From IMG/VR virus record IMGVR_UViG_3300043775_001393, positions 1 to 20,253 of that record: 20,253 nt of DNA; one strand, given 5' to 3'. Shown here piece by piece: positions 8,258 through 20,253 of this stretch (its first letter is position 1; every line of letters begins with the position of its first letter). The notes beneath the pieces were generated by a model, which worked only from the letters and a program-made list of their open reading frames with translations, did no database searches and was not told where the DNA came from. Both the position numbers and the translations under genes were made by a program. The stretch is from a virus.

Positions 8258-8863
8258 ATGACCGCCTCAGCAATTAACCCAAATATCAATGAAAATTTTC
8301 CAGTTCCAGGAGTTGATAACGATACCCAAGTATTCCGTGACAACTTTACTACCATCAAAGCTAGTTTATCTAGTGCAAAAAGTGAAATGGAACAGTTTCT
8401 TAATCATGGTGTTCGTGATGATACTGCAGTAACCAATCTTAACGGTAACACCCTAACCAATGCAGTTTTAACAAAAACAACCGAAAAGATCTACAACTTC
8501 AACGCATTATTGACCGCACAATTCGATGTTGATTTTAATAACGGTCCATACCAGTTAGCACAGGTAGGCGCTGACCTAAACATAAACCTTGTTAATTTTC
8601 CAAGTGACCAAACTGCATCTAAAAATGGTAGAGTCATACTACACTTGACAGCAAATGATTCACATCACACGGTATCATTCACATCAACTAACGGAACCCT
8701 AATCAAGTATGATGAAAACTTCCCACGTATTGATGATAGTACACTCGCTGGTCCTACAACAGTAAGACATTTAGGTGTTACTAGTTCATCAAACCCAGTT
8801 ATCGTTGAAATATGGAAGTTTAAAGATACATTCTTTATCAAATATATCGGATTCTTCTCGTGA
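8258..8863 (+). CDS. Virion structural protein
   Basis: A 201-aa protein opening with INPNINENFPVPGVDNDTQVFRDNFTTIKASL, a phage virion N-terminus related in style to the ANDG/KVNxNF attachment motif and followed by a predicted helix (SAKSEMEQFLNHGV). The remainder is beta-rich with a Thr/Ser/Asn-rich central part and an aromatic C-terminus (WKFKDTFFIKYIGFFS). It begins immediately after the adhesin stop codon and its own TGA overlaps the GTG start of the next gene. Position and sequence style indicate a particle component, perhaps of the baseplate or fibre base; no precise homologue can be named. Confidence 0.68.
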   Translation: MTASAINPNINENFPVPGVDNDTQVFRDNFTTIKASLSSAKSEMEQFLNHGVRDDTAVTNLNGNTLTNAVLTKTTEKIYNFNALLTAQFDVDFNNGPYQLAQVGADLNINLVNFPSDQTASKNGRVILHLTANDSHHTVSFTSTNGTLIKYDENFPRIDDSTLAGPTTVRHLGVTSSSNPVIVEIWKFKDTFFIKYIGFFS

Positions 8864-9093
8864 ATCACCCATTCGCACCTGATTTAACCGCCATGCGAGA
8901 TGATGAAGTCGAGTTGAAACTCAACGAACTCATGAAAAAATACCACATGGCTTATAGACTAGGTAACCAAGAACTCTTGACACAGTTGGCTACATTTGTT
9001 AACATCTACAAAGAAGAACTCTCCAATAGATTCCGTGCTAAGATTACCCAATCCGAAAATGGCGACCTTGGAGAACTCATTAACGTAGATTAG
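8860..9093 (+). CDS. Small conserved phage protein, probably helical
   Basis: A 77-aa protein beginning with GTG in the overlap GTGA with the previous stop. It reads FAPDLTAMRDDEVELKLNEL, then a helical middle (MAYRLGNQELLTQLATFVNIYKEEL) and a short acidic tail. From memory, similar small proteins with an AYRxGN...L element occur at this place in T4-like phages of marine bacteria, so I keep the full-length GTG start. The alternative is ATG at 8894, which would drop the APDLTAM segment. No Shine-Dalgarno is clear, in line with translational coupling. It may be a virion accessory or a chaperone for the preceding protein (guess). Confidence 0.62.
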   Translation: MNHPFAPDLTAMRDDEVELKLNELMKKYHMAYRLGNQELLTQLATFVNIYKEELSNRFRAKITQSENGDLGELINVD

Positions 9094-9101
9094 GAGTTCC
9101 A

Positions 9102-9557
9102 ATGACCAATACTGTAGACCAATTAGTCACAGGCGTTTTAAGACATGGCCCAGATATTCTGGGCTATTGCACATGTGCCGATGACATTTCAAAGTACGTC
9201 AATTATCTTTTAGATGAAAGACTTAATTACCCAGTACCACTCGAAGAAACCAATCCAAACAACTGGTTTATCCCAGATTCCTACAAAAACTTAGATATCG
9301 CAGCATGGTGTTTAGCCAAATGCAGCACTGACACGGAAGTCGCAAGAGTGGAATTAGAACTAACCGAGTTTAAATCACGTAACCTATTCCCAGTCCTACA
9401 ATGCATGCTTTATATCGTTGATACCCTACGTGCCCATAATATAGTATGGGGTGTAGGTAGAGGTAGTTCAGTGTCAAGCTACGTCTTATTCCTTATTGGT
9501 GTCCATAAAATCGATAGTATCAAATACGGTTTAGACATTAAAGAGTTTTTGCGTTGA
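9102..9557 (+). CDS. Stand-alone fragment resembling bacterial DNA polymerase III alpha (DnaE), without the catalytic site
   Basis: A 151-aa protein whose second half (about residues 80-151) aligns by eye with the C-family polymerase segment that ends in GRGSxxGSxVxYxxGIxxxDPLxYxLxFxRFL: here RVELELTEFKSRNL, VWGVGRGSSVSSYVLFLIGV and KIDSIKYGLDIKEFLR. The ORF stops exactly where a true alpha subunit would continue to the catalytic PDFDxD motif, so it cannot polymerise DNA. Residues 1-80 are not clearly related to DnaE. The start has AGGAG eight bases before the ATG and follows the virion block after 8 bp. I do not read it as a recent deletion, because no alpha-subunit coding remnant follows the stop and the gene has its own good RBS. 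Its role is unknown; it might bind the clamp, a nucleotide or a 5' phosphate. Confidence 0.72.
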   Translation: MTNTVDQLVTGVLRHGPDILGYCTCADDISKYVNYLLDERLNYPVPLEETNPNNWFIPDSYKNLDIAAWCLAKCSTDTEVARVELELTEFKSRNLFPVLQCMLYIVDTLRAHNIVWGVGRGSSVSSYVLFLIGVHKIDSIKYGLDIKEFLR

Positions 9558-10101: not shown

Positions 10102-10449
10102 ATGAGTGAAGTAATAACGATCGATCGAACTATACGGGATCACATTTTAATCAGAAACATGCGTCATAGTGAAACCGTTTTACAATCTGGTATAATTTTA
10201 AATTCTGATTCAGGAAAATCTCACGGTATACGCCCTCGTTGGGCTCAGGTGTTCATGGTGGGTCCGGATCAGAAATATATCAAGAAGGATGATTGGATTT
10301 TGCTTGAACATGCTCGTTGGACACGAAAAGTACGAGTAGAAACACCAGAAGGTCCAATGGATCTGCAACGAGCAGACAATGATGCAATTTTACTCGTATC
10401 TGATGTAGAACCACCGGTATCAGATCAATACATCCCATCCAAGTGCTAG
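10102..10449 (+). CDS. GroES/gp31-like co-chaperonin
   Basis: A 115-aa protein of co-chaperonin size. It carries the GroES-type beta-barrel layout: IRDHILIRNMRHSETVLQSGIIL at residues 10-32, where the DHxLIR opening and the segment leading to GIIL correspond to the barrel start and mobile loop. This is followed by HGIRPRWAQVFMVGPDQKYIKKDDWILLEHARWTR, equivalent to the GxVxAVGxG...VKxGDxVLF region, and a C-terminal DNDAILLVSDVE that matches the DDxxILxV strand. T4 gp31 replaces host GroES so that the major capsid protein can fold in GroEL; the same role is inferred here. The similarity is by motif order and length, not by close identity. It follows the 65-aa gene after 8 bp. Confidence 0.72.
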   Translation: MSEVITIDRTIRDHILIRNMRHSETVLQSGIILNSDSGKSHGIRPRWAQVFMVGPDQKYIKKDDWILLEHARWTRKVRVETPEGPMDLQRADNDAILLVSDVEPPVSDQYIPSKC

Positions 10450-11467: not shown

Positions 11468-12586
11468 CTAATTATCTTTTAGTTCATCCGTTTTATTTTC
11501 TACCTGATGTGGTTTTACGAGTTTCTTACATTTCCAACCTTTGTGCTGCTTATATAATCCGCTCGAACACCGCTGCATACCGTCTGCAGATAAGTCATTC
11601 TCCCTACAAAACTTAGCAAGATTTTTGATAACAATCACTTCCCCATCTGGTTTAGTTAACTGCCAAATACTACTATGCTCTGCATCTTTTCCATTTTTCG
11701 CCCTTGTAGCAACTGCTTTTTGTGCTGCTATCTTATCAGTGCCATTGCGTTTACGCGTCTCAGCAGATTTCTGTGCTGAAATTTTAGAAGTACCATTACG
11801 CTTACGCGTCTCAGCGCCTTTTTGTGCTCCTATTTTACCAGTACCATTCCGTATACGGGTTTCCCCAGAACGTTTCCCTCCAATTTTATGCGTACCACGT
11901 TTCTTTTTAGTAGCAACAGCCTTTTGTGCTGCTAATTTTGAAGTTCCGTTAGCTTTTCTCGTAGCACCACCTTTCTTACCAGACGTTTCAAAAATACCAA
12001 GTTTCTTTTTTGTAGCAACTGCTTTTTGTGTTGCTAGTTTTGCAGTACCGTCAGCTTTTCTACGCTCACCGGCTACTTTATACGATCCACGTGCATTTCC
12101 AGTTTCAACGCCCTTTTGTTTCGATTCAGCGGTACCAGCCCACATCTTACCACCAGTTACTGGATCCTTGTATTGTAGATTCAATAGTAGTGGATTACCC
12201 CAATAAGCTTTTATGATGGTTTGTTCAAATAAATAAGTCTGTTCAATATCGGTTGATTGAAAAATGACTTTATAATCGAAACTATCTTTACCGTAAATTT
12301 CCACTAACGCATCAACAGGGTCACTACTTGCAAAATAATAGATCCATAGATCATCCTCTGGCATTCTATACTTTTTGATATTTGCATATCTAAGACCATA
12401 GTAAAACTGCCCAGTTGGTTTGCAGATTAGGCGATATACATACGCAGGTGTTGTGTTAATTGGTTCTTCTGCTTCGATTGTTGCAGATGTTAGTAGTTCT
12501 ACTGATTCAGTAGTAGTTGTAGTTGTAGTTGTAGTTGTTTGAATTTCTGACGACAACGCGTCATTTTGATTTGCATAAATACTCAT
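11468..12586 (-). CDS. GIY-YIG homing-type endonuclease with seven 17-residue NUMOD3-like repeats
   Basis: A 372-aa protein. Residues 1-45 are a Thr-rich linker including ten Thr in a row. Residues 48-138 form a GIY-YIG-type nuclease: YVYRLICKPTGQFYYG (49-64) with YVY/YYG in place of GIY/YIG, then the conserved Arg region, a Glu in FEQTIIKAYWG (120-130) and LLLNL. Residues 180-298 are seven tandem 17-residue basic units of the type GTSKISAQKSAETRKRN, like NUMOD3 repeats that grip DNA. Residues 308-356 form a terminal module (WQLTKPDGEVIVIKNL then FCRENDL and HKGWKCKKL) typical of intron- or homing-endonuclease C-termini. AAAGGAGC precedes the ATG. No intron is evident next to it, so it is a free-standing homing gene (Seg-like). 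Its leader is a duplicate of that of the gene at 17530-18693. Confidence 0.83.
   Translation of the reverse strand: MSIYANQNDALSSEIQTTTTTTTTTTESVELLTSATIEAEEPINTTPAYVYRLICKPTGQFYYGLRYANIKKYRMPEDDLWIYYFASSDPVDALVEIYGKDSFDYKVIFQSTDIEQTYLFEQTIIKAYWGNPLLLNLQYKDPVTGGKMWAGTAESKQKGVETGNARGSYKVAGERRKADGTAKLATQKAVATKKKLGIFETSGKKGGATRKANGTSKLAAQKAVATKKKRGTHKIGGKRSGETRIRNGTGKIGAQKGAETRKRNGTSKISAQKSAETRKRNGTDKIAAQKAVATRAKNGKDAEHSSIWQLTKPDGEVIVIKNLAKFCRENDLSADGMQRCSSGLYKQHKGWKCKKLVKPHQVENKTDELKDN
11693..12049 (-). repeat. 51-bp in-frame tandem repeat, seven units
   Basis: Seven consecutive 51-bp units encode the 17-residue repeats of the GIY-YIG protein. Each unit begins with Gly and ends in a basic run (KKK, RKR or similar). 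Confidence 0.85.
12513..12536. repeat. GTAGTT hexamer, four tandem copies (poly-Thr)
   Basis: Four perfect GTAGTT units on the + strand encode part of the ten-Thr run near the N-terminus of the - strand GIY-YIG protein. Gain or loss of units would stay in frame. Confidence 0.8.
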
Positions 12587-12946: not shown

Positions 12947-13879
12947 ATGGCAATTCCACAATTATGGGTTGAAAAATACAGACCGTCCACACTCGAAGGA
13001 TATGTTTTCACTGATCCTAAACAAAAAGCAACTATTGAAAAGTGGGTTAAAGAGAAAAACATTGGGCATTTGGGTCTCAGCGGTCCGGGAGGAGTTGGTA
13101 AAACAACTCTGGCACGATTACTTGTAAATGAACTAGGTGTTAATCCATACGATTTCTTAGAAATTAATGCAAGTCGAAATTCTAGTATCGACGAAGTCAG
13201 AGACCGTATAACAAACTTTGCTCAAATGATGCCATTTGGCGCATTTAAGATTATATTACTTGATGAAGCGGATGGCGTGTCTTTTAGTGGCCAACAGGCA
13301 TTGCGTGGTGTTATCGAGGCATATAGTGATACTGCACGGTTTATTCTAACCTATAATTATCCGCATCGAATCATCCCTGCGTTGAAAAGTCGTTGTCAAG
13401 GATTTCATATTGAGAAACCTGACGTAACCGAGTTTACTACTAGAGTTGCCACCATTTTAATCAACGAAAACGTTGAATTTTCATTGGATGTTCTCGATTC
13501 GTATGTCAGAGCAACCTATCCAGATTTGCGGAAATGTATCAACGAATTACAACAAAATACGATTTCAAATAAGTTAGTGTCGCCAGGTGATGGTGATAAT
13601 AGCACGGCTGAATGGCGTTTTCAGATGGTTGAGTTATTCAAAGCTGGTAAGATAAACGATGCACGTGCATTACTATGTGGTAAAATCTCAGCAGATGAAA
13701 TGGAGGATGTGTATAGATTTATCTATGATAACCTATCCATTTTTAGTGAGGATTCCACAGTTCAAGATTCTATTATCTTAATAGTTAAGCAATCTTTAGT
13801 GGACCACCAGGCGGTGGCAGATCCAGAGATCAACCTCAGTGCCTGTCTAATCCGTATTATGAGATTACTAAATAAGTGA
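12947..13879 (+). CDS. 44: Clamp loader ATPase subunit (T4 gp44-like)
   Basis: A 310-aa AAA+ ATPase, close to the roughly 319 residues of T4 gp44. Opening WVEKYRPSTLEGYV is the classic RFC/gp44 start. Walker A is GPGGVGKTT (46-54), Walker B ILLDEAD (103-109), sensor 1 Asn in TYNYPHRI (about 137) and the SRC box LKSRCQ (146-151) supplies the arginine finger acting on the neighbouring subunit. The ATPase opens the phage sliding clamp and places it on primer-template DNA for the replicative polymerase and for clamp-dependent late transcription. The small clamp-loader subunit (gp62), which follows gene 44 in T4, is not recognisable here; a dCMP deaminase follows instead, overlapping by one base. 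Confidence 0.93.
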   Translation: MAIPQLWVEKYRPSTLEGYVFTDPKQKATIEKWVKEKNIGHLGLSGPGGVGKTTLARLLVNELGVNPYDFLEINASRNSSIDEVRDRITNFAQMMPFGAFKIILLDEADGVSFSGQQALRGVIEAYSDTARFILTYNYPHRIIPALKSRCQGFHIEKPDVTEFTTRVATILINENVEFSLDVLDSYVRATYPDLRKCINELQQNTISNKLVSPGDGDNSTAEWRFQMVELFKAGKINDARALLCGKISADEMEDVYRFIYDNLSIFSEDSTVQDSIILIVKQSLVDHQAVADPEINLSACLIRIMRLLNK

Positions 13880-14810: not shown

Positions 14811-14891
14811 ATGTTTTACACTCTTACTTTCATCGCATTCTTATTTGTTTTTGCTTTTATGCTTGCTGATTTTCTTACGGACTTCGAATGA
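14811..14891 (+). CDS. 26-aa membrane peptide leading the DUF1566 operon
   Basis: The ATG at 14811 has AGGAG nine bases upstream and lies 31 bp after a perfect -10 box. The peptide is one hydrophobic helix (FYTLTFIAFLFVFAFMLADFL) with a short acidic end (TDFE) and no positive charge, so a single inner-membrane span is likely. The stop overlaps the next ATG in an ATGA, coupling it to the first DUF1566 gene. A longer reading from a TTG at 14688 would include the promoter and is rejected. Function unknown; small phage membrane peptides may act in superinfection exclusion or lysis control, with no direct evidence here. Confidence 0.7.
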   Translation: MFYTLTFIAFLFVFAFMLADFLTDFE

Positions 14892-15184
14892 ACATCGAAA
14901 TAGCACCGATTGCATTTCAAAAAGAATTAAACTGGTATGATGCTAGGTTGTACTGCTTTTCGTTGACCATTGATGGAAAAACTGGATGGCGTTTACCTAC
15001 CAATAAGGAACAAGAGTTTCTAAAATCACAGAACATTGAAAGTTCTGATGAATGGTATTGGACTTCCGATGATTACGCTGAAAACTTGGTAGTTTGTTAC
15101 AACTGGCATTCTGATATGTGTGCTAGTGGGAATAAAAATAACCCGTTTTACGCCAGACCAGTGAGAGATCTAAAAGATAATTGA
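14888..15184 (+). CDS. DUF1566/Lcl-type stand-alone protein, paralogue 1
   Basis: A 98-aa protein consisting of one DUF1566 (Lcl C-terminal-like, C-type-lectin-like) domain: start MNIEIAP, W-YDARLYCFSL (16-26), IDGKTGWRLPT (28-38), WYWTS (56-60) and a closing ARPVRDL. No signal peptide, so it is cytoplasmic or injected. The N-terminal 40 residues are nearly shared by all paralogues of the operon; the part after GWRLPT is variable. The start is coupled to the membrane peptide by an ATGA overlap. The C-terminal LKDN is encoded by a reverse copy of the 12-mer repeat (15170-15181), which runs into the stop codon. Confidence 0.8.
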   Translation: MNIEIAPIAFQKELNWYDARLYCFSLTIDGKTGWRLPTNKEQEFLKSQNIESSDEWYWTSDDYAENLVVCYNWHSDMCASGNKNNPFYARPVRDLKDN

Positions 15185-15190
15185 ATCAAC

Positions 15191-15212
15191 GCGAGCACCG
15201 CTAGGTGCGAGC
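15191..15212 (+). repeat. 22-bp GC-rich hairpin element, copy 2
   Basis: Arm GCGAG, stem CACC, loop GCTA, stem GGTG, arm CGAGC. It lies in the 44-bp gap between paralogues 1 and 2, and ends four bases before the Shine-Dalgarno AAGGA (15217-15221) of paralogue 2. Confidence 0.72.
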
Positions 15213-15228
15213 TATTAAGGAAAACCGC

Positions 15229-15567
15229 ATGAACTTTGAAGTAGCACCAGAAAAGTATTGGACTCGCCTACCCTACGATGAAGCAGTATTCTATTGCTTC
15301 ACATTAGGTTATCGTTTACCAACAGAAAAAGAATTCCTTGAACTCTCAGTTGCTGAATTTAGATTTGAAGGCCCTTATTGGACTAGTGAACCTCCTCGTC
15401 TTGAGTTCAGATATGTTTACATTAACTTACAAAAAGGCAGAGGTGGTTGCACCAGTTCACGGGTTAGTAGTAAATGTTTGGTTTTGCCAATTAGAACTAA
15501 ACAACCTATTGTCAAAACGCCAAATCTTTTCAAACGGATTATTAACCGACTATGTACATCGAAATAG
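15229..15567 (+). CDS. DUF1566/Lcl-type protein, paralogue 2 (divergent)
   Basis: A 112-aa paralogue from ATG 15229, preceded by AAGGA; a GTG at 15205 lies within the hairpin element and is rejected. It keeps MNFEVAP, YDEAVFYCF (16-24) and YRLPTEKEFLEL, but the segment IDGKTGW found in the others is shortened to LGYRLPT. The aromatic pair is PYWTSE (49-54), and the family's final RxVR appears as VLPIRT (85-90). It carries an extra basic tail (FKRIINRLCTSK), part of which overlaps the next gene by 16 bp. The degenerate core suggests it has drifted from the group or lost a binding loop. Confidence 0.76.
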   Translation: MNFEVAPEKYWTRLPYDEAVFYCFTLGYRLPTEKEFLELSVAEFRFEGPYWTSEPPRLEFRYVYINLQKGRGGCTSSRVSSKCLVLPIRTKQPIVKTPNLFKRIINRLCTSK

Positions 15568-15905
15568 CACCTCCCAAATATCAGGTTAAAATGCCACAAA
15601 ATACAGCAAAGATGTATTGTTTCTCCCTTAACATTGACGGTAAGGTAGGCTGGCGTGAACCAACCACCAACGAATTGCATAAGATTACGAAATCCATAGA
15701 TTACGAGGAATGGGCTTCTAACCGTGGTTGTTGGAGTGCTGATGGTTATACTATCTTACGTGATTGTTGGTCGTTACCATGGCCACTTATCAATGATTAC
15801 GAACTTAATACTCCACGTTTGGTAGTCCCAGTTAGAACCCTACCAGAAGTCGGTTGGTTTGGTAGGTTGATCTACAAATGGAACGGATATAGAGAAATCC
15901 TATGA
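15552..15905 (+). CDS. DUF1566/Lcl-type protein, paralogue 3
   Basis: A 117-aa paralogue: MYIEIAPPKY, AKMYCFSLNIDGKVGW (19-34) and REPTTNEL, where Leu of the RLPT motif is replaced by Glu. The Trp/Ser aromatic turn is GCWSADG (59-65), and the region between it and VPVRTL is unlike that of the other copies. An extra C-terminal segment (WFGRLIYKWNGYREIL) follows. The start lies inside the end of paralogue 2 without a good ribosome binding site, so translation is likely coupled. Its stop overlaps the next ATG in an ATGA. Confidence 0.76.
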   Translation: MYIEIAPPKYQVKMPQNTAKMYCFSLNIDGKVGWREPTTNELHKITKSIDYEEWASNRGCWSADGYTILRDCWSLPWPLINDYELNTPRLVVPVRTLPEVGWFGRLIYKWNGYREIL

Positions 15906-16237
15906 ACTTTGAAACAGCACCGAAGTCAGCAGTAATTGAAGCAAACTACGATGATGCCAGATTCTACTGTATGGCAAACATTGAGGGTAAAACAGGTTGG
16001 AGATTACCAACTATGGATGAATTGAATCAAATATACCTTGATAATCGATTACAGGTGCAAAAGTTTGAACCAGTTTGTTACTGGTCATGCACTCCGTATA
16101 ATGTACTCGATAACCCAGTTTTTGACAAAGCCGTTTGGACTCAAGATTTCAGAAAAGGATTCCAAACGTATTGCATACCAGGCAAAAACAATATACCATA
16201 CAATAGGTATTTTGTATTACCTGTTCGTGATCTCTAA
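15902..16237 (+). CDS. DUF1566/Lcl-type protein, paralogue 4
   Basis: A 111-aa paralogue beginning MNFETAPKSAVIEANYDDAR, with FYCMANIEGKTGWRLPTMDEL (21-41), CYWSCTP (59-65) and a terminal RYFVLPVRDL. The variable middle (66-100) is longer than in the shorter paralogues. It starts at the ATGA overlap with paralogue 3. Its TAA stop is formed inside a reverse copy of the 12-mer repeat (16234-16245), the second paralogue of the array to end this way. Confidence 0.79.
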   Translation: MNFETAPKSAVIEANYDDARFYCMANIEGKTGWRLPTMDELNQIYLDNRLQVQKFEPVCYWSCTPYNVLDNPVFDKAVWTQDFRKGFQTYCIPGKNNIPYNRYFVLPVRDL

Positions 16238-16263
16238 AAGATAATTAAACCAAGGAATCTAAC

Positions 16264-16551
16264 ATGAAAAGCATTGACGTATACAAACCAACCCACGATG
16301 ATTGGTACCCTTCATACCAAGTAGAAGGTTGGGATAACCTACAACTTGTTTGTGTTTCCTTTATTCAGACTGGTCCAGATCCAGCAAGGGGGAATGGCCA
16401 ATGGCGTGTTTGCGTTTGGGGTGCAGATGATTGCGGTATGGAAAGAGACTACGACGATCGCAGTGAAGCTATGACTATGTTCTATCGGGTTATCAGTTGG
16501 GAGTTTGTAGATCTTAAGTTGCTACGTGAACATGGGTTTGTTAGTGCATGA
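16264..16551 (+). CDS. Unrelated small phage protein embedded in the DUF1566 array
   Basis: A 95-aa protein without DUF1566 features. It reads YKPTHDDWYPSYQVEGWDNL, LVCVSFIQTG and QWRVCVWGADDCGMERDYDD, then a helical C-terminus (FYRVISWEFVDLKLLREHGF). The block RVCVWGxDDxGMExDF is, from memory, a small-protein family of T4-like phages with unknown role. AAGGAA lies seven bases before the ATG, a better ribosome binding site than most of its neighbours have. Its stop overlaps the start of the next DUF1566 gene in an ATGA, so it is fully part of the operon although unrelated to the other members. Confidence 0.72.
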   Translation: MKSIDVYKPTHDDWYPSYQVEGWDNLQLVCVSFIQTGPDPARGNGQWRVCVWGADDCGMERDYDDRSEAMTMFYRVISWEFVDLKLLREHGFVSA

Positions 16552-16841
16552 AATATGAAATAGCACCCAAATCAACAACAATCCAATCCACGTGGGATGA
16601 AGCTATGATATATTGTTTTTCTCTTAACATAGATGGTAAGGTTGGATGGTGGTTACCTACCTTCGAAGAACTCACCGAGATATTTTCAACAGATAAGGAT
16701 TTCGACGATGGGACGTATTGGTCTTCTACTGAGGGTGATAACAGTAACGCATTCGTTAAGATGCTCCCACGCCACGGGTTTGCAACTTCAAGTCAAAAAC
16801 ACATCGTCAATCATACCAGAGCAGTCAGAACAATCATATAA
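16548..16841 (+). CDS. DUF1566/Lcl-type protein, paralogue 5
   Basis: A 97-aa paralogue: MKYEIAPKSTTIQSTWDEAM, IYCFSLNIDGKVGWWLPT (21-38, with Trp in place of Arg in GWRLPT), FEELTEIF, TYWSSTEGDNSNAF (56-69) and a final HTRAVRTII. It starts at an ATGA overlap with the unrelated gene before it. Size and motif spacing are close to paralogues 6 and 7, with which it forms the tighter subgroup of the array. Confidence 0.8.
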   Translation: MKYEIAPKSTTIQSTWDEAMIYCFSLNIDGKVGWWLPTFEELTEIFSTDKDFDDGTYWSSTEGDNSNAFVKMLPRHGFATSSQKHIVNHTRAVRTII

Positions 16842-16865
16842 TCTTTTTAACCATTGGAATAATTT

Positions 16866-17156
16866 ATGAACTTTGAAATAGCACCAAAAGAAACCGAAAT
16901 AGAAGCAATCTGGAGTGATGCCGTTCTCTATTGCGCATCCATTTGTATAGATGGTAAGTCAGGGTGGCGTTTACCAACCAACGCAGAGTTATACACGATC
17001 AGTAAATCAACCAATGATTTCAAAAAGACATGGTATTGGTCATCAGTAGAAAGTGACAATTTTCACGCTTTTTCTCAGCATTTTACCACTAATATGCAAA
17101 GCGTACACAGCAAAAAACTATACGCAAATCGAGTCAGAGCAGTGAGAGATCTATGA
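16866..17156 (+). CDS. DUF1566/Lcl-type protein, paralogue 6
   Basis: A 96-aa paralogue: MNFEIAPKETEIEAIWSDAV, LYCASICIDGKSGWRLPT (21-38), NAELYTISKSTNDFKKTWYW (39-58), SSVESDNFHAF and NRVRAVRDL. The first 16 residues are almost the same as in paralogue 7, pointing to a recent duplication, while the segments after the WYWSS turn differ strongly. It lies 24 bp after paralogue 5 with a weak GGAATAA upstream; its stop overlaps the next start in an ATGA. Confidence 0.81.
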   Translation: MNFEIAPKETEIEAIWSDAVLYCASICIDGKSGWRLPTNAELYTISKSTNDFKKTWYWSSVESDNFHAFSQHFTTNMQSVHSKKLYANRVRAVRDL

Positions 17157-17455
17157 CTTTCGAAATCGCACCGAAAGAAACTGAAATAGAATCCAACTGG
17201 GATGATGCCAAACTATATTGCTTTGCTCTTAATATAGATGGTAAAACAGGTTGGAGATTACCAACCAAGAAAGAATTGTGGATACTAAAGGAATCAGACA
17301 ACGATTTTGCTATACGTTGGTATTGGTCATCTACTGAGAATGAGAACTGTGACAATATCGCGTGGTGTTATTACGGTGGTGTTACCGGTGGTGTTGGCTA
17401 CAATTTTAAAGATAATAACAGCATATGTGTTAGAGCTGTTAGGTCTATTGATTGA
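17153..17455 (+). CDS. DUF1566/Lcl-type protein, paralogue 7
   Basis: A 100-aa paralogue and the most typical member: MTFEIAPKETEIESNWDDAK, LYCFALNIDGKTGWRLPT (21-38), KKELWILKESDNDFAIRWYW (39-58), SSTENENCDNIAWCYYGG and a closing CVRAVRSID. Its second half is rich in Gly, Tyr, Asn and Cys, the composition expected of an exposed ligand-binding face in C-type-lectin-like folds. It ends the operon; a short hairpin follows at 17501 before the convergent GIY-YIG gene. Confidence 0.82.
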   Translation: MTFEIAPKETEIESNWDDAKLYCFALNIDGKTGWRLPTKKELWILKESDNDFAIRWYWSSTENENCDNIAWCYYGGVTGGVGYNFKDNNSICVRAVRSID

Positions 17456-17521: not shown

Positions 17522-17533
17522 ATTATCTTTTAG
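17522..17533 (+). repeat. ATTATCTTTTAG 12-mer at the 3' end of the second GIY-YIG gene
   Basis: Exact copy overlapping the last codon and stop of the - strand gene. The first GIY-YIG gene ends in the same way at 11471-11482. Confidence 0.7.
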
Positions 17534-18693
17534 TCTAATCTTTTACACTTCCAGCCGCCTCGATGGGTTTCTCTAACGCCATTGGAAACTTTTTGCATAC
17601 CTCGGTATGATAAATTATTATCTTTACAGAATTGACGCATATCACCAACTTTGAAAACTTCACCTTGTGGGTTAATGACATCCCAGTAAACTGGTGTTCG
17701 TTCAACTCGATAATTAATACAGGTCCAACCATGATACTGGCGTTGAGAACCAGATGCCACTTTACACATAGCAGAATAACTAAGGTCATGTTCTACACAA
17801 AACTTTTTAAAATCATCTGGACAATGGACATTGCCATCTGGGTCAGTGGCCTCCCATTTACACATAGTCGTCAGTCGTTCCGTTTCTAAATGCTTACACT
17901 TCCAACCACGATGTGTATCTTGTCTGCCATTTGATACGTCTTTCATACACCCTGGATTCAATCCATTTTCTCTACAAAAACGTTCAAGATTTTTAATTTG
18001 AAATACAACACCTAACGGATTTGTAAGTTCCCAATGTTGATCGTGAGGATGATCCATCGTGTTTTTATCCAGCTTCACTTTGGTATTTTTGCGAATCACT
18101 TCTTCACGAACCTCTTGTGGCGTGCTCAAACACACGCAAGTCCATCCTTTGTGATTCGTTATTTTTCCTTTATCAACCGCATTCATACATGATCGATTTA
18201 ACCCGTTGTCCCTGCAATATTTTTCAAGATTGTTAATCTCAATAACTTCGCCGGTTGGAGTTGTCAATCTCCAGCGTTTAGTTGCTCGAATCTTCGTAAC
18301 CGTGTTGTTTTTCAACCTAGTTTGATACCCTTTCTTCGCACTCTTACTGGTAGTAACAAATTTCACAGTACCACCATTGTCAACACAATGTTTATTCAAT
18401 GAAAGTGGTTCTTTTCGATGTTTCTTGATGATATCCTGTTCGTACCAATAAACCGCATCAACGTCAGTAGATTCAAATATAATCTCATATTCAAATGCAC
18501 CTTTCCCGTATTCATCGATTAATGCTTCGACATAAGTACTACTAGTAAAGTAGTAAATCCAAAAATCATCATTTGGTAGTCGTTTTCGATCGATATTTAA
18601 TTTACGGTATCCGTAATAGAACTGACCTGTTGGTTTGCATACAAGTTTATACACGTATGCTGGCACACCCGTGCCGTTTTGATAAATACTCAT
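17530..18693 (-). CDS. GIY-YIG homing-type endonuclease with four C-terminal DNA-binding modules
   Basis: A 387-aa relative of the protein at 11468-12586. Residues 12-102 form the GIY-YIG-type nuclease: YVYKLVCKPTGQFYYG (13-28), a conserved Arg, Glu in YEQDIIKKH (84-92) and LSLN. One basic NUMOD3-like unit remains (KSAKKGYQTRLKNN, 117-130) instead of seven. Four modules of about 50 residues follow (140-188, 220-269, 279-328, 336-387), each with W-x-[LVA]-x-x-P-x-G, a [DN]-[LFM]-x-x-[FY]-C element and HxGW-x-C. Such modules occur singly at the C-terminus of many homing endonucleases. The last one reads HRGGWKC, with one extra Gly. The start follows AGAGG and the leader is a duplicate of the other GIY-YIG gene's. 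It is a free-standing homing gene; its target is not visible. Confidence 0.82.
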   Translation of the reverse strand: MSIYQNGTGVPAYVYKLVCKPTGQFYYGYRKLNIDRKRLPNDDFWIYYFTSSTYVEALIDEYGKGAFEYEIIFESTDVDAVYWYEQDIIKKHRKEPLSLNKHCVDNGGTVKFVTTSKSAKKGYQTRLKNNTVTKIRATKRWRLTTPTGEVIEINNLEKYCRDNGLNRSCMNAVDKGKITNHKGWTCVCLSTPQEVREEVIRKNTKVKLDKNTMDHPHDQHWELTNPLGVVFQIKNLERFCRENGLNPGCMKDVSNGRQDTHRGWKCKHLETERLTTMCKWEATDPDGNVHCPDDFKKFCVEHDLSYSAMCKVASGSQRQYHGWTCINYRVERTPVYWDVINPQGEVFKVGDMRQFCKDNNLSYRGMQKVSNGVRETHRGGWKCKRLD

Positions 18694-18801: not shown

Positions 18802-19236
18802 TCAAGAATCTAATTGTTTACATGTCCATCCCTTGTGACTTTTCCTAACTCCCCGTGATACCTTTCCCATAGTAGACGGATCTAAGCCATTTTCTTTACA
18901 AAACAGTTCAAGATTACGTATTGTGAATGTGTTGCCTTCAGAATTAGTTAATTCCCAAGTTTTGGTATTAGCCTCGTTTGCAGCTGCCATTGATAAATTA
19001 CCATTTGCAATCCGCGATGCCAATGATTTCTGCGCATTTTCTTTGGTTATCCCACGTTCTCTACAAGTTATCGCAGCTTTATCAGCAGCTATCTGAAATG
19101 TTCCGTTATTAGTTTTAGTAACTTTTGCTTTTGCCGCACCGGTCACATACGAGTTATTAGCCAATCTAGTTTCACGGATCTTTTGTCCAACTGTTTTAGT
19201 TTCTGCTGTGGTTTCTGTATCTTCAGTCATGTTCAC
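18802..19236 (-). CDS. Nuclease-less relative of the GIY-YIG proteins (DNA-binding modules only)
   Basis: A 144-aa protein containing the DNA-binding parts of the two GIY-YIG proteins but no nuclease domain. Residues 20-90 hold NUMOD3-like units with the same 17-residue period (GTFQIAADKAAITCRER, GITKENAQKSLASRIAN), and 92-143 form one terminal module (TWELTNSEGNTFTIRNLELF, then CKENGLDPSTMGKVSRG and HKGWTCKQL). The first 16 residues are Thr/Glu-rich. AGAGGTG precedes the ATG, TATAAT lies about 46 bases upstream of it, and a terminator follows directly, so it looks expressed rather than decayed. It may be a repressor or competitor of the homing enzymes, or a remnant that lost its nuclease domain; sequence alone does not decide. 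Confidence 0.76.
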   Translation of the reverse strand: MNMTEDTETTAETKTVGQKIRETRLANNSYVTGAAKAKVTKTNNGTFQIAADKAAITCRERGITKENAQKSLASRIANGNLSMAAANEANTKTWELTNSEGNTFTIRNLELFCKENGLDPSTMGKVSRGVRKSHKGWTCKQLDS

Positions 19237-19334: not shown

Positions 19335-20253
19335 TTAATCATCTTCACCATAATATCGCAATACTTCTGCAACGACCTTTGATCTTTCAATATCAGAATG
19401 ATTAAAATGAACAATCGAGATTGCTGAATCTGCTTCCTTTGCACTTTCATACAATTCCATGAAATTCCTCAATCCATTACGATCACCCCTATCACTCTGC
19501 GCTAAATCACCCGTAATTATCAATTTACTCGACGAAGCTATTCGAGTAAGAAGCATTTTCATTTGATTGGGTGTGGTTAACTGCGCCTCATCTGCAATAA
19601 TAACTGAATTCTGTAAGTTTCGCCCTCTAAGGCACCCTATTAATGCAAATTCAATAACTTTTTCATTGACATAATGATTTACCGTATCTGGACTCCAATT
19701 ATCTTCAAGTATATCAACGATGCTCAATACATACGGTTCGATTTTATCACGTACTCCGCCCGGTAAGGCACCAATAATTTCATCAGTAGCGTATAGCGGT
19801 CTAGCAATCACCAGTTTATCATATTTTCCCTTTTTTAACTGATCAATTCCATACTGCACTGCTAATAAAGTGTTGTGATTCACAATAAACTCATCAGTAA
19901 CATACAGATGATCCTCACTATCAATCAAGATACACTGACATTCTTCCATCTCAGCTTCTACAACTGAGAGCACTGGCATTAACTCTAAAGGACTCTCAAC
20001 GATACTAAACCGAATATGAACACCAGTGTCTTTGATACAAGCAGAACCACCGATAGAACGAACTAAGTAGACAACCGAGTCTTGTAACAAGGCACCAGCA
20101 GTAAAGACTAGGTTACCAGAATCGACAGCATGGATGCTGGTATCGAGTAGACCTTGTAGTAATTTAACTTTTTGTGAACGAGAAGCGTTGAGATATTCCG
20201 CTGGGATAGCTGTATCGTCTTTTAAAAGCATAGTACCTAATTGGAAAGGGTCG
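19335..20253 (-). CDS. phoH: PhoH-family ATPase interrupted by an intein (5' part outside the window)
   Basis: The - strand frame is open from the window edge (20252) to the stop at 19335; the Met at 20231 is internal. From 19871 to 19335 it encodes a PhoH ATPase: TLLAVQYGIDQLKKG, LVIARPL, ALPGGVRDKIEPY, CLRGRNLQNSVIIADEAQLT (Walker B) and MLLTRIASSSKLIITGDLAQ (sensor). The family normally reads GxAGTGKTLLAV; here the residues before TLLAV are LYVTDEFIVNHN, an exact intein C-terminus with the penultimate His and final Asn. The intein therefore sits between the Walker A Lys and Thr. Upstream intein sequence (IPAEYLNASRSQKVKLLQGL) is of LAGLIDADG type. PhoH proteins of phages are ATPases of uncertain role, possibly RNA helicase-like. 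No active ATPase forms without splicing. Confidence 0.87.
   Translation of the reverse strand, partial: DPFQLGTMLLKDDTAIPAEYLNASRSQKVKLLQGLLDTSIHAVDSGNLVFTAGALLQDSVVYLVRSIGGSACIKDTGVHIRFSIVESPLELMPVLSVVEAEMEECQCILIDSEDHLYVTDEFIVNHNTLLAVQYGIDQLKKGKYDKLVIARPLYATDEIIGALPGGVRDKIEPYVLSIVDILEDNWSPDTVNHYVNEKVIEFALIGCLRGRNLQNSVIIADEAQLTTPNQMKMLLTRIASSSKLIITGDLAQSDRGDRNGLRNFMELYESAKEADSAISIVHFNHSDIERSKVVAEVLRYYGEDD
19872..20253 (-). mobile_element. Intein C-terminal part with a degraded LAGLIDADG motif, inserted in phoH
   Basis: The visible portion ends at the Asn codon 19872-19874; the next codon is Thr, a permitted +1 residue. Block F/G is QCILIDSEDHLYVTDEFIVNHN. The endonuclease motif reads GLLDTSI where active members have GLLDTDG, so the catalytic Asp and the helix-packing Gly are both changed. 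The N-terminal splicing half lies beyond 20253. Confidence 0.83.

Follow-up and report, generated by a model that had tools for sequence, protein, structure and literature searches.

A minimal, phage-specific form of the alpha subunit of DNA polymerase III (Pol III alpha), made up of an NTP-binding protein and a Mg2+- and template-binding one from distant genes, was described from the group 2.2 jumbo phages, among which Atu_ph07 was placed, and a role in one-strand synthesis or repair was suggested for it (Iyer et al. 2021, PMC7824862). The N-terminal protein was earlier called truncated (PMC5259590) or simply Pol III alpha (PMC6102473), and in the accessible parts of the literature searched, PMC12926913 included, the split is described only in PMC7824862 and no experimental study was found. 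In the present study a 20,253-nt stretch of viral DNA (IMG/VR record IMGVR_UViG_3300043775_001393, positions 1 to 20,253; hereafter the window) was analysed with regard to its open reading frame (ORF) at 9102-9557, here called the stub, which lies on the plus strand and encodes 151 aa between an ATG start and a TGA stop. The stub belongs to the kind of split polymerase already described: like the N-terminal protein of Iyer et al. it carries GRGS and ends before the catalytic motif, no essential difference was found, and the window derives from an uncultured relative, with its closest related contigs in IMG/VR. Beyond that description, we report conservation of the active site, constant boundaries of the split, signs of purifying selection, linkage to clamp-loader and primase genes, occurrence in a 141-kb phage and an unsplit version in a huge phage with a family B polymerase (PolB). 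Together with a second gene, here called the C-half, the stub probably encodes a two-subunit minimal DNA polymerase of the C family.

With E. coli DnaE (Pol III alpha, 1160 aa) the pair shares the motifs GRGS, DxDxD, KxD, RP and KSHxxAY as well as the palm and finger fold, but it is split between positions corresponding to residues ~393 and ~400, amounts to ~340 aa in total and lacks the PHP domain and the thumb, the regions that bind clamp and tau, and the greater part of the fingers. Cyanobacterial DnaE likewise comes from two genes, with a split intein that links their products, whereas the phage halves hold no intein segment.

The original prediction, made from the letters of the window alone, had held that the last residues of the stub are homologous to DnaE, that they stop just ahead of the catalytic motif and that the gene looks functional, and it had named a profile search without a DnaE match as one way to overturn this. 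The search returned Pfam DNA_pol3_alpha (PF07733) over stub residues 77-150, corresponding to profile positions 21-94 of 260 (E 1.9e-8), with 34.7 bits against a curated cut-off of 23.9, and the protein is also matched by PHROG 11127 'DNA polymerase' (2e-44). The likeness to the C family exceeds chance, since none of 1000 shuffled versions of the stub protein matched the stub profile. In a profile-profile alignment stub residues 77-150 pair with E. coli DnaE 319-392; there GRGS begins at 361 and the aspartates of the catalytic motif, which we take to be the catalytic residues, are 401, 403 and 405, and therefore the stub ends just ahead of that motif. The stub's own GRGS occupies residues 119-122 (9456..9467) within a palm half of residues 49-151 (9246..9554); ahead of it lie only ~48 residues (9102..9245), helical, well predicted and beyond the span aligned to PDB entries, and no PHP family match was obtained there. 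None of the metal-binding aspartates and no DxDxD are carried by the stub alone. An AGGAG ribosome-binding site (9092..9096, plus strand, read from the sequence) stands 5 nt 5' of the ATG and overlaps the stop of the preceding gene, just past which the stub's ATG lies. ORF 9102-9557 is a real gene and not a dead stub, and the claims on homology, end point and functional look of the gene are thus borne out.

Relatives of the stub were encoded by 60 of 50,697 phage records, and 217 were found in viral contigs, of which the best 80 were kept. For the end points 95 hits were considered and four set aside: L021, which is cut by the contig edge, and L178, L179 and L186, whose apparent stubs proved to be long unsplit polymerase ORFs. 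All 91 closed stubs (66 distinct) stop 33-41 residues past GRGS, and GRGS is invariant in the 49 that were aligned. Comparison of the stub with relatives in three contigs gave nonsynonymous divergence (dN) of ~0.026-0.035 and synonymous divergence (dS) of 0.23-0.35, with dN/dS ~0.07-0.12. Judged from these sequences, the stub is under purifying selection and represents a family with a constant end, not a fragment.

The missing catalytic half was sought with a DnaE finger profile in 13 relative records in full, which gave weak matches in nine, two of them above cut-off, and all but one of the match places lay in ORFs of 190-217 aa. For one of these finger-matched genes PF07733 is matched as well, starting at position 92, at which the match of the stub ends. 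In their homology the two proteins are complementary. In the remaining four records the C-half was detected by tblastn (Paride, Vibrio 2.275, SCTP-2) or by profile (the record of contig L073). The catalytic motif stands at the start of the C-half proteins (MPDIDIDF, MMDIDIDF, MDIDIDI or similar), in some of them behind a short extension; the first methionine stands two residues ahead of DxDxD in 72 of the 105 C-half ORFs, DxDxD and KxDxL are present in every one of them, and the finger motifs RPxK and KKxHAxAYA are retained. Across stubs (49) and C-halves (105) the active-site residues are conserved. In the closest large relative of the window, a 327 kb record, the stub is 93% identical and lies at 219848-220303, and its partner lies 154 kb away at 65205-65768, starts MMDIDIDF and carries K-x-D as well as the finger motifs. 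A family B polymerase, which the original prediction had expected to coexist with the stub, was found in all 13 relatives searched whole, the closest included, so that both halves and PolB are present in each of these genomes.

Co-occurrence was assessed by comparing the record lists of stub and C-half by eye. In tblastn the closest relative's C-half matched 63 phage records (60 of them listed) and a distant C-half 64, and in the pooled lists the partner is present in all 60 stub-bearing phage records, three of which were seen via the distant query. C-half records beyond these were those of Slicko01 and Slickus01 (141 kb) and of a Klebsiella phage (109 kb). Of the three, Slicko01 was covered by the profile search and has the stub, and the pair hence occurs in a 141-kb phage, below jumbo size. 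Among 21 further records stub profiles matched 20, three of these being unsplit polymerases, and C-half profiles matched 13, with both halves in all four records of at least 300 kb.

The predicted structures point in the same direction. The AlphaFold model of the C-half (predicted local distance difference test, pLDDT, 90.6) had bacterial C-family polymerases in all of its best 14 structure rows, ahead of a first unrelated row at Z 3.6; it matched best to 3e0d (Z 9.2, 187 residues aligned, root-mean-square deviation, rmsd, 3.6) and fitted residues 400-781 of E. coli 2hnh with Z 8.2, 179 of 188 residues aligned and rmsd 3.8. For the stub (pLDDT 82.6) the top five rows were all C-family, the first unrelated row stood at Z 2.9, and residues 49-137 fitted 272-379 of E. 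coli 2hqa (Z 6.2, 85 aligned, rmsd 3.6). By the structure tool's own note such Z values fall in the middle range, and the weight of the comparison lies in the facts that all top rows come from one family and that the DnaE ranges of the two models, 272-379 and 400-781, are complementary and do not overlap. In the stub model pLDDT drops from ~90 to 42 across the GRGS end, as would be expected if the partner is needed for folding.

Unsplit C-family cores occur in phages as well. In the 484-kb phage record LR756508.1, PolB stands beside a single unsplit C-family frame of 575 aa to which both half-profiles match, and a search of this record for separate halves found none; a PolB phage with a one-chain core therefore lends support to the halves working together. 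Unsplit small Pol III alpha ORFs were also seen at L178:5384-7120, L179:11383-12756, L186:8872-10572 and L168:12760-14178; each of these four metagenomic contigs, which are fragments, also holds a C-half gene, so that some phages may have two C-family enzymes. Such unsplit enzymes (L178:5429-7117, 563 aa; LR756508.1) share with the pair a C-family catalytic core in a phage, but differ in being one chain with longer sequence between the motifs, nearer to cellular DnaE (PF07733 E 1.5e-40). A search of 17 records for the unsplit polymerase gave five matches, all of which were the stubs themselves.

The pair of halves contains the complete set of aspartates, GRGS and finger motifs, and with good confidence we regard the two as forming one enzyme. 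The GRGS of the stub would bind the phosphates of the incoming nucleotide, and the three metal-binding aspartates, in DIDID and KxD, would come from the unlinked second gene together with a finger domain of reduced size. Meeting in trans, the two proteins would rebuild one palm of the pol-beta fold, lacking thumb, PHP, clamp-binding and tau-binding domains, with one active site made up of the aspartates, GRGS and finger motifs of both. The assembled pair would then carry out metal-dependent nucleotide transfer.

Several observations weigh against this enzyme. The window itself is without the partner: a second in-frame stop directly follows the TGA of the stub, the C-half profile has no match in its 20 kb, and DxDxD occurs in none of its six frames. 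The Pfam finger-domain match of the C-half lies under the Pfam cut-off, and Foldseek E-values were weak (0.017 and 0.11). Among the 21 further records, eight (all 102-217 kb) have a stub without a detected C-half, and one of 148 kb has a C-half without a detected stub; such one-half records are probably fragments. None of the 95 ORFs hit by the stub profile or the 105 hit by the C-half profile was a fusion of stub and C-half. Finally, the thumb is absent from the C-half as read from its sequence, because only ~27 residues separate DIDID and HxxG, compared with ~105 in E. coli (405 to 511), a region we take to be the thumb there, and its loss may leave the pair unable to act as a normal polymerase.

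This last point bears on the alternative that both halves form one nucleotidyltransferase other than a DNA polymerase, such as one that tags proteins, small molecules or the ends of nucleic acids. Many transferases are built on the pol-beta fold, and the combined absence of thumb, PHP, clamp-binding and tau-binding parts, with the short DIDID-HxxG spacing, would suit one; however, RPxK and KKxHAxAYA are retained, the whole C-half fits polymerase palm and fingers, and the neighbours are replisome genes, so that we consider this alternative improbable. The original prediction had taken the stub for a non-catalytic segment that may bind DNA ends or deoxynucleotide triphosphates or disturb replication of the host. 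Action of the stub alone in this manner, or as a block to the host replisome, would make it a catalytically dead decoy and would agree with its lack of the metal-binding DxDxD; yet the catalytic remainder is a separate conserved gene that begins at that very motif, accompanies the stub in all 60 phage records and retains its catalytic motifs, and when the stub is folded by itself, confidence is lowest at its GRGS end. That claim was not upheld, and a decoy is very improbable. A DnaE truncated by mutation or by an assembly artefact, in line with the CBB homologue being called truncated in a 2017 genome paper (PMC5259590), is refuted as a simple broken gene by the identical end point in 91 closed stubs, the low dN/dS, the 217 relatives in viral contigs and the lack of a downstream frameshifted remainder, for which the original prediction had advised looking; the partner is an unlinked intact ORF and not debris, and the explanation has next to no chance of being right. 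Protein trans-splicing as in cyanobacterial split DnaE, a known precedent, can practically be dismissed, and with it intein-mediated joining, since there is no room for intein segments where stubs end in polymerase sequence 33-41 residues past GRGS and most C-halves begin within a few residues of DxDxD.

The surroundings of both genes were counted over loci with enough flank, without de-replication. In the window, the stub is preceded by a 77-aa gene (8860..9093, plus strand; weak match to PHROG 15348, E 4e-4) and followed, on the same strand, by genes for a GroES-like (Cpn10) protein (10102..10449, PHROG 931) and a clamp loader ATPase like T4 gp44 (12947..13879, PHROG 168), both conserved 3' neighbours of stubs: the GroES-like gene was found downstream in 71 of 72 loci and gp44 in 60 of 64. 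C-halves have a gp62-like gene (89/97) and a zinc-finger protein (PHROG 11058; 92/103) upstream, and primase (63/63) and helicase (44/50) downstream. Close to stubs, gp62-like genes were seen on the downstream side in 2 of 64 loci and on the upstream side in 0 of 81; for gp44 close to C-halves the counts were 1 of 63 loci upstream and 0 of 44 downstream. In the 141-kb Slicko01 the stub, gp44, gp62-like, zinc-finger, C-half and primase-helicase genes all lie inside ~15 kb. The name gp62 is based on matches to PHROG 225 'clamp loader' in XacN1 (E 2.9e-10), RAS14 (7e-7) and Slicko01 (3e-4), as well as on the order gp44-gp62 in these phages; the gp62-like proteins tested from CBB, Atu_ph07 and a relative of the window gave no match to PHROG 225 and matched PHROG 11758 instead, and a profile alignment of T4 gp62 with the gp62-like family found no convincing match (E 0.03 and 0.048). 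In the CBB genome paper gp62 is reported lacking (PMC5259590); the CBB gene 5' of its C-half (L116:4083-4928) belongs to PHROG 11758 (E 3e-144), and PHROG 11758 proteins upstream of C-half genes, CBB included, are probable candidates for a gp62-like small subunit of the clamp loader.

Because both genes stand in replisome clusters, the one with the clamp loader and the other with primase-helicase, the likeliest job of the two-subunit enzyme would be to synthesize short tracts alongside the family B replicase, for instance by extending primers and handing them off or by filling gaps. That it acts as a DNA polymerase, whether it extends primers, fills gaps or takes part in repair, we hold to be somewhat better than an even bet. 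A more specific scenario, in which the thumb-less pair is a dedicated second replisome polymerase that extends primers and hands them to the family B replicase, and in which the halves ancestrally lay in one cluster beside one clamp-loader subunit each (stub-gp44, C-half-gp62) until jumbo phages broke it between gp44 and gp62, is speculative and rather unlikely.

Other features of the window were recorded in passing. A UvdE-type UV endonuclease is encoded at 1330-2364 on the plus strand (PF03851 E 2e-38), and seven tandem paralogous ORFs of ~100 aa with the pattern WRLPT...YWSS occupy 14888-17455 on the same strand; the two that were tested match Lcl_C (PF07603), presumably a C-type-lectin-like domain. 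Homing-endonuclease-like ORFs with repeats lie on the minus strand at 11468-12586, 17530-18693 and 18802-19236, the first two with weak SegE GIY-YIG matches. A PhoH-like ORF (19335-20252, minus strand; PF02562 E 2e-46) has its N-terminal part off the window edge, ending in '...FIVNHN' directly ahead of 'TLLAVQYG', and shows a weak terminase-family match at residues 94-134 (2e-5); it looks as if its Walker A motif is interrupted by an intein.

For the phages concerned, the 'truncated DnaE' that appeared as an oddity in genome papers becomes half of a probable enzyme, of which the other half is present in every examined record of at least 300 kb. Should it prove active, this enzyme would amount to a ~340-residue C-family core whose palm is divided between two chains, and it would reveal what Pol III alpha can do without.
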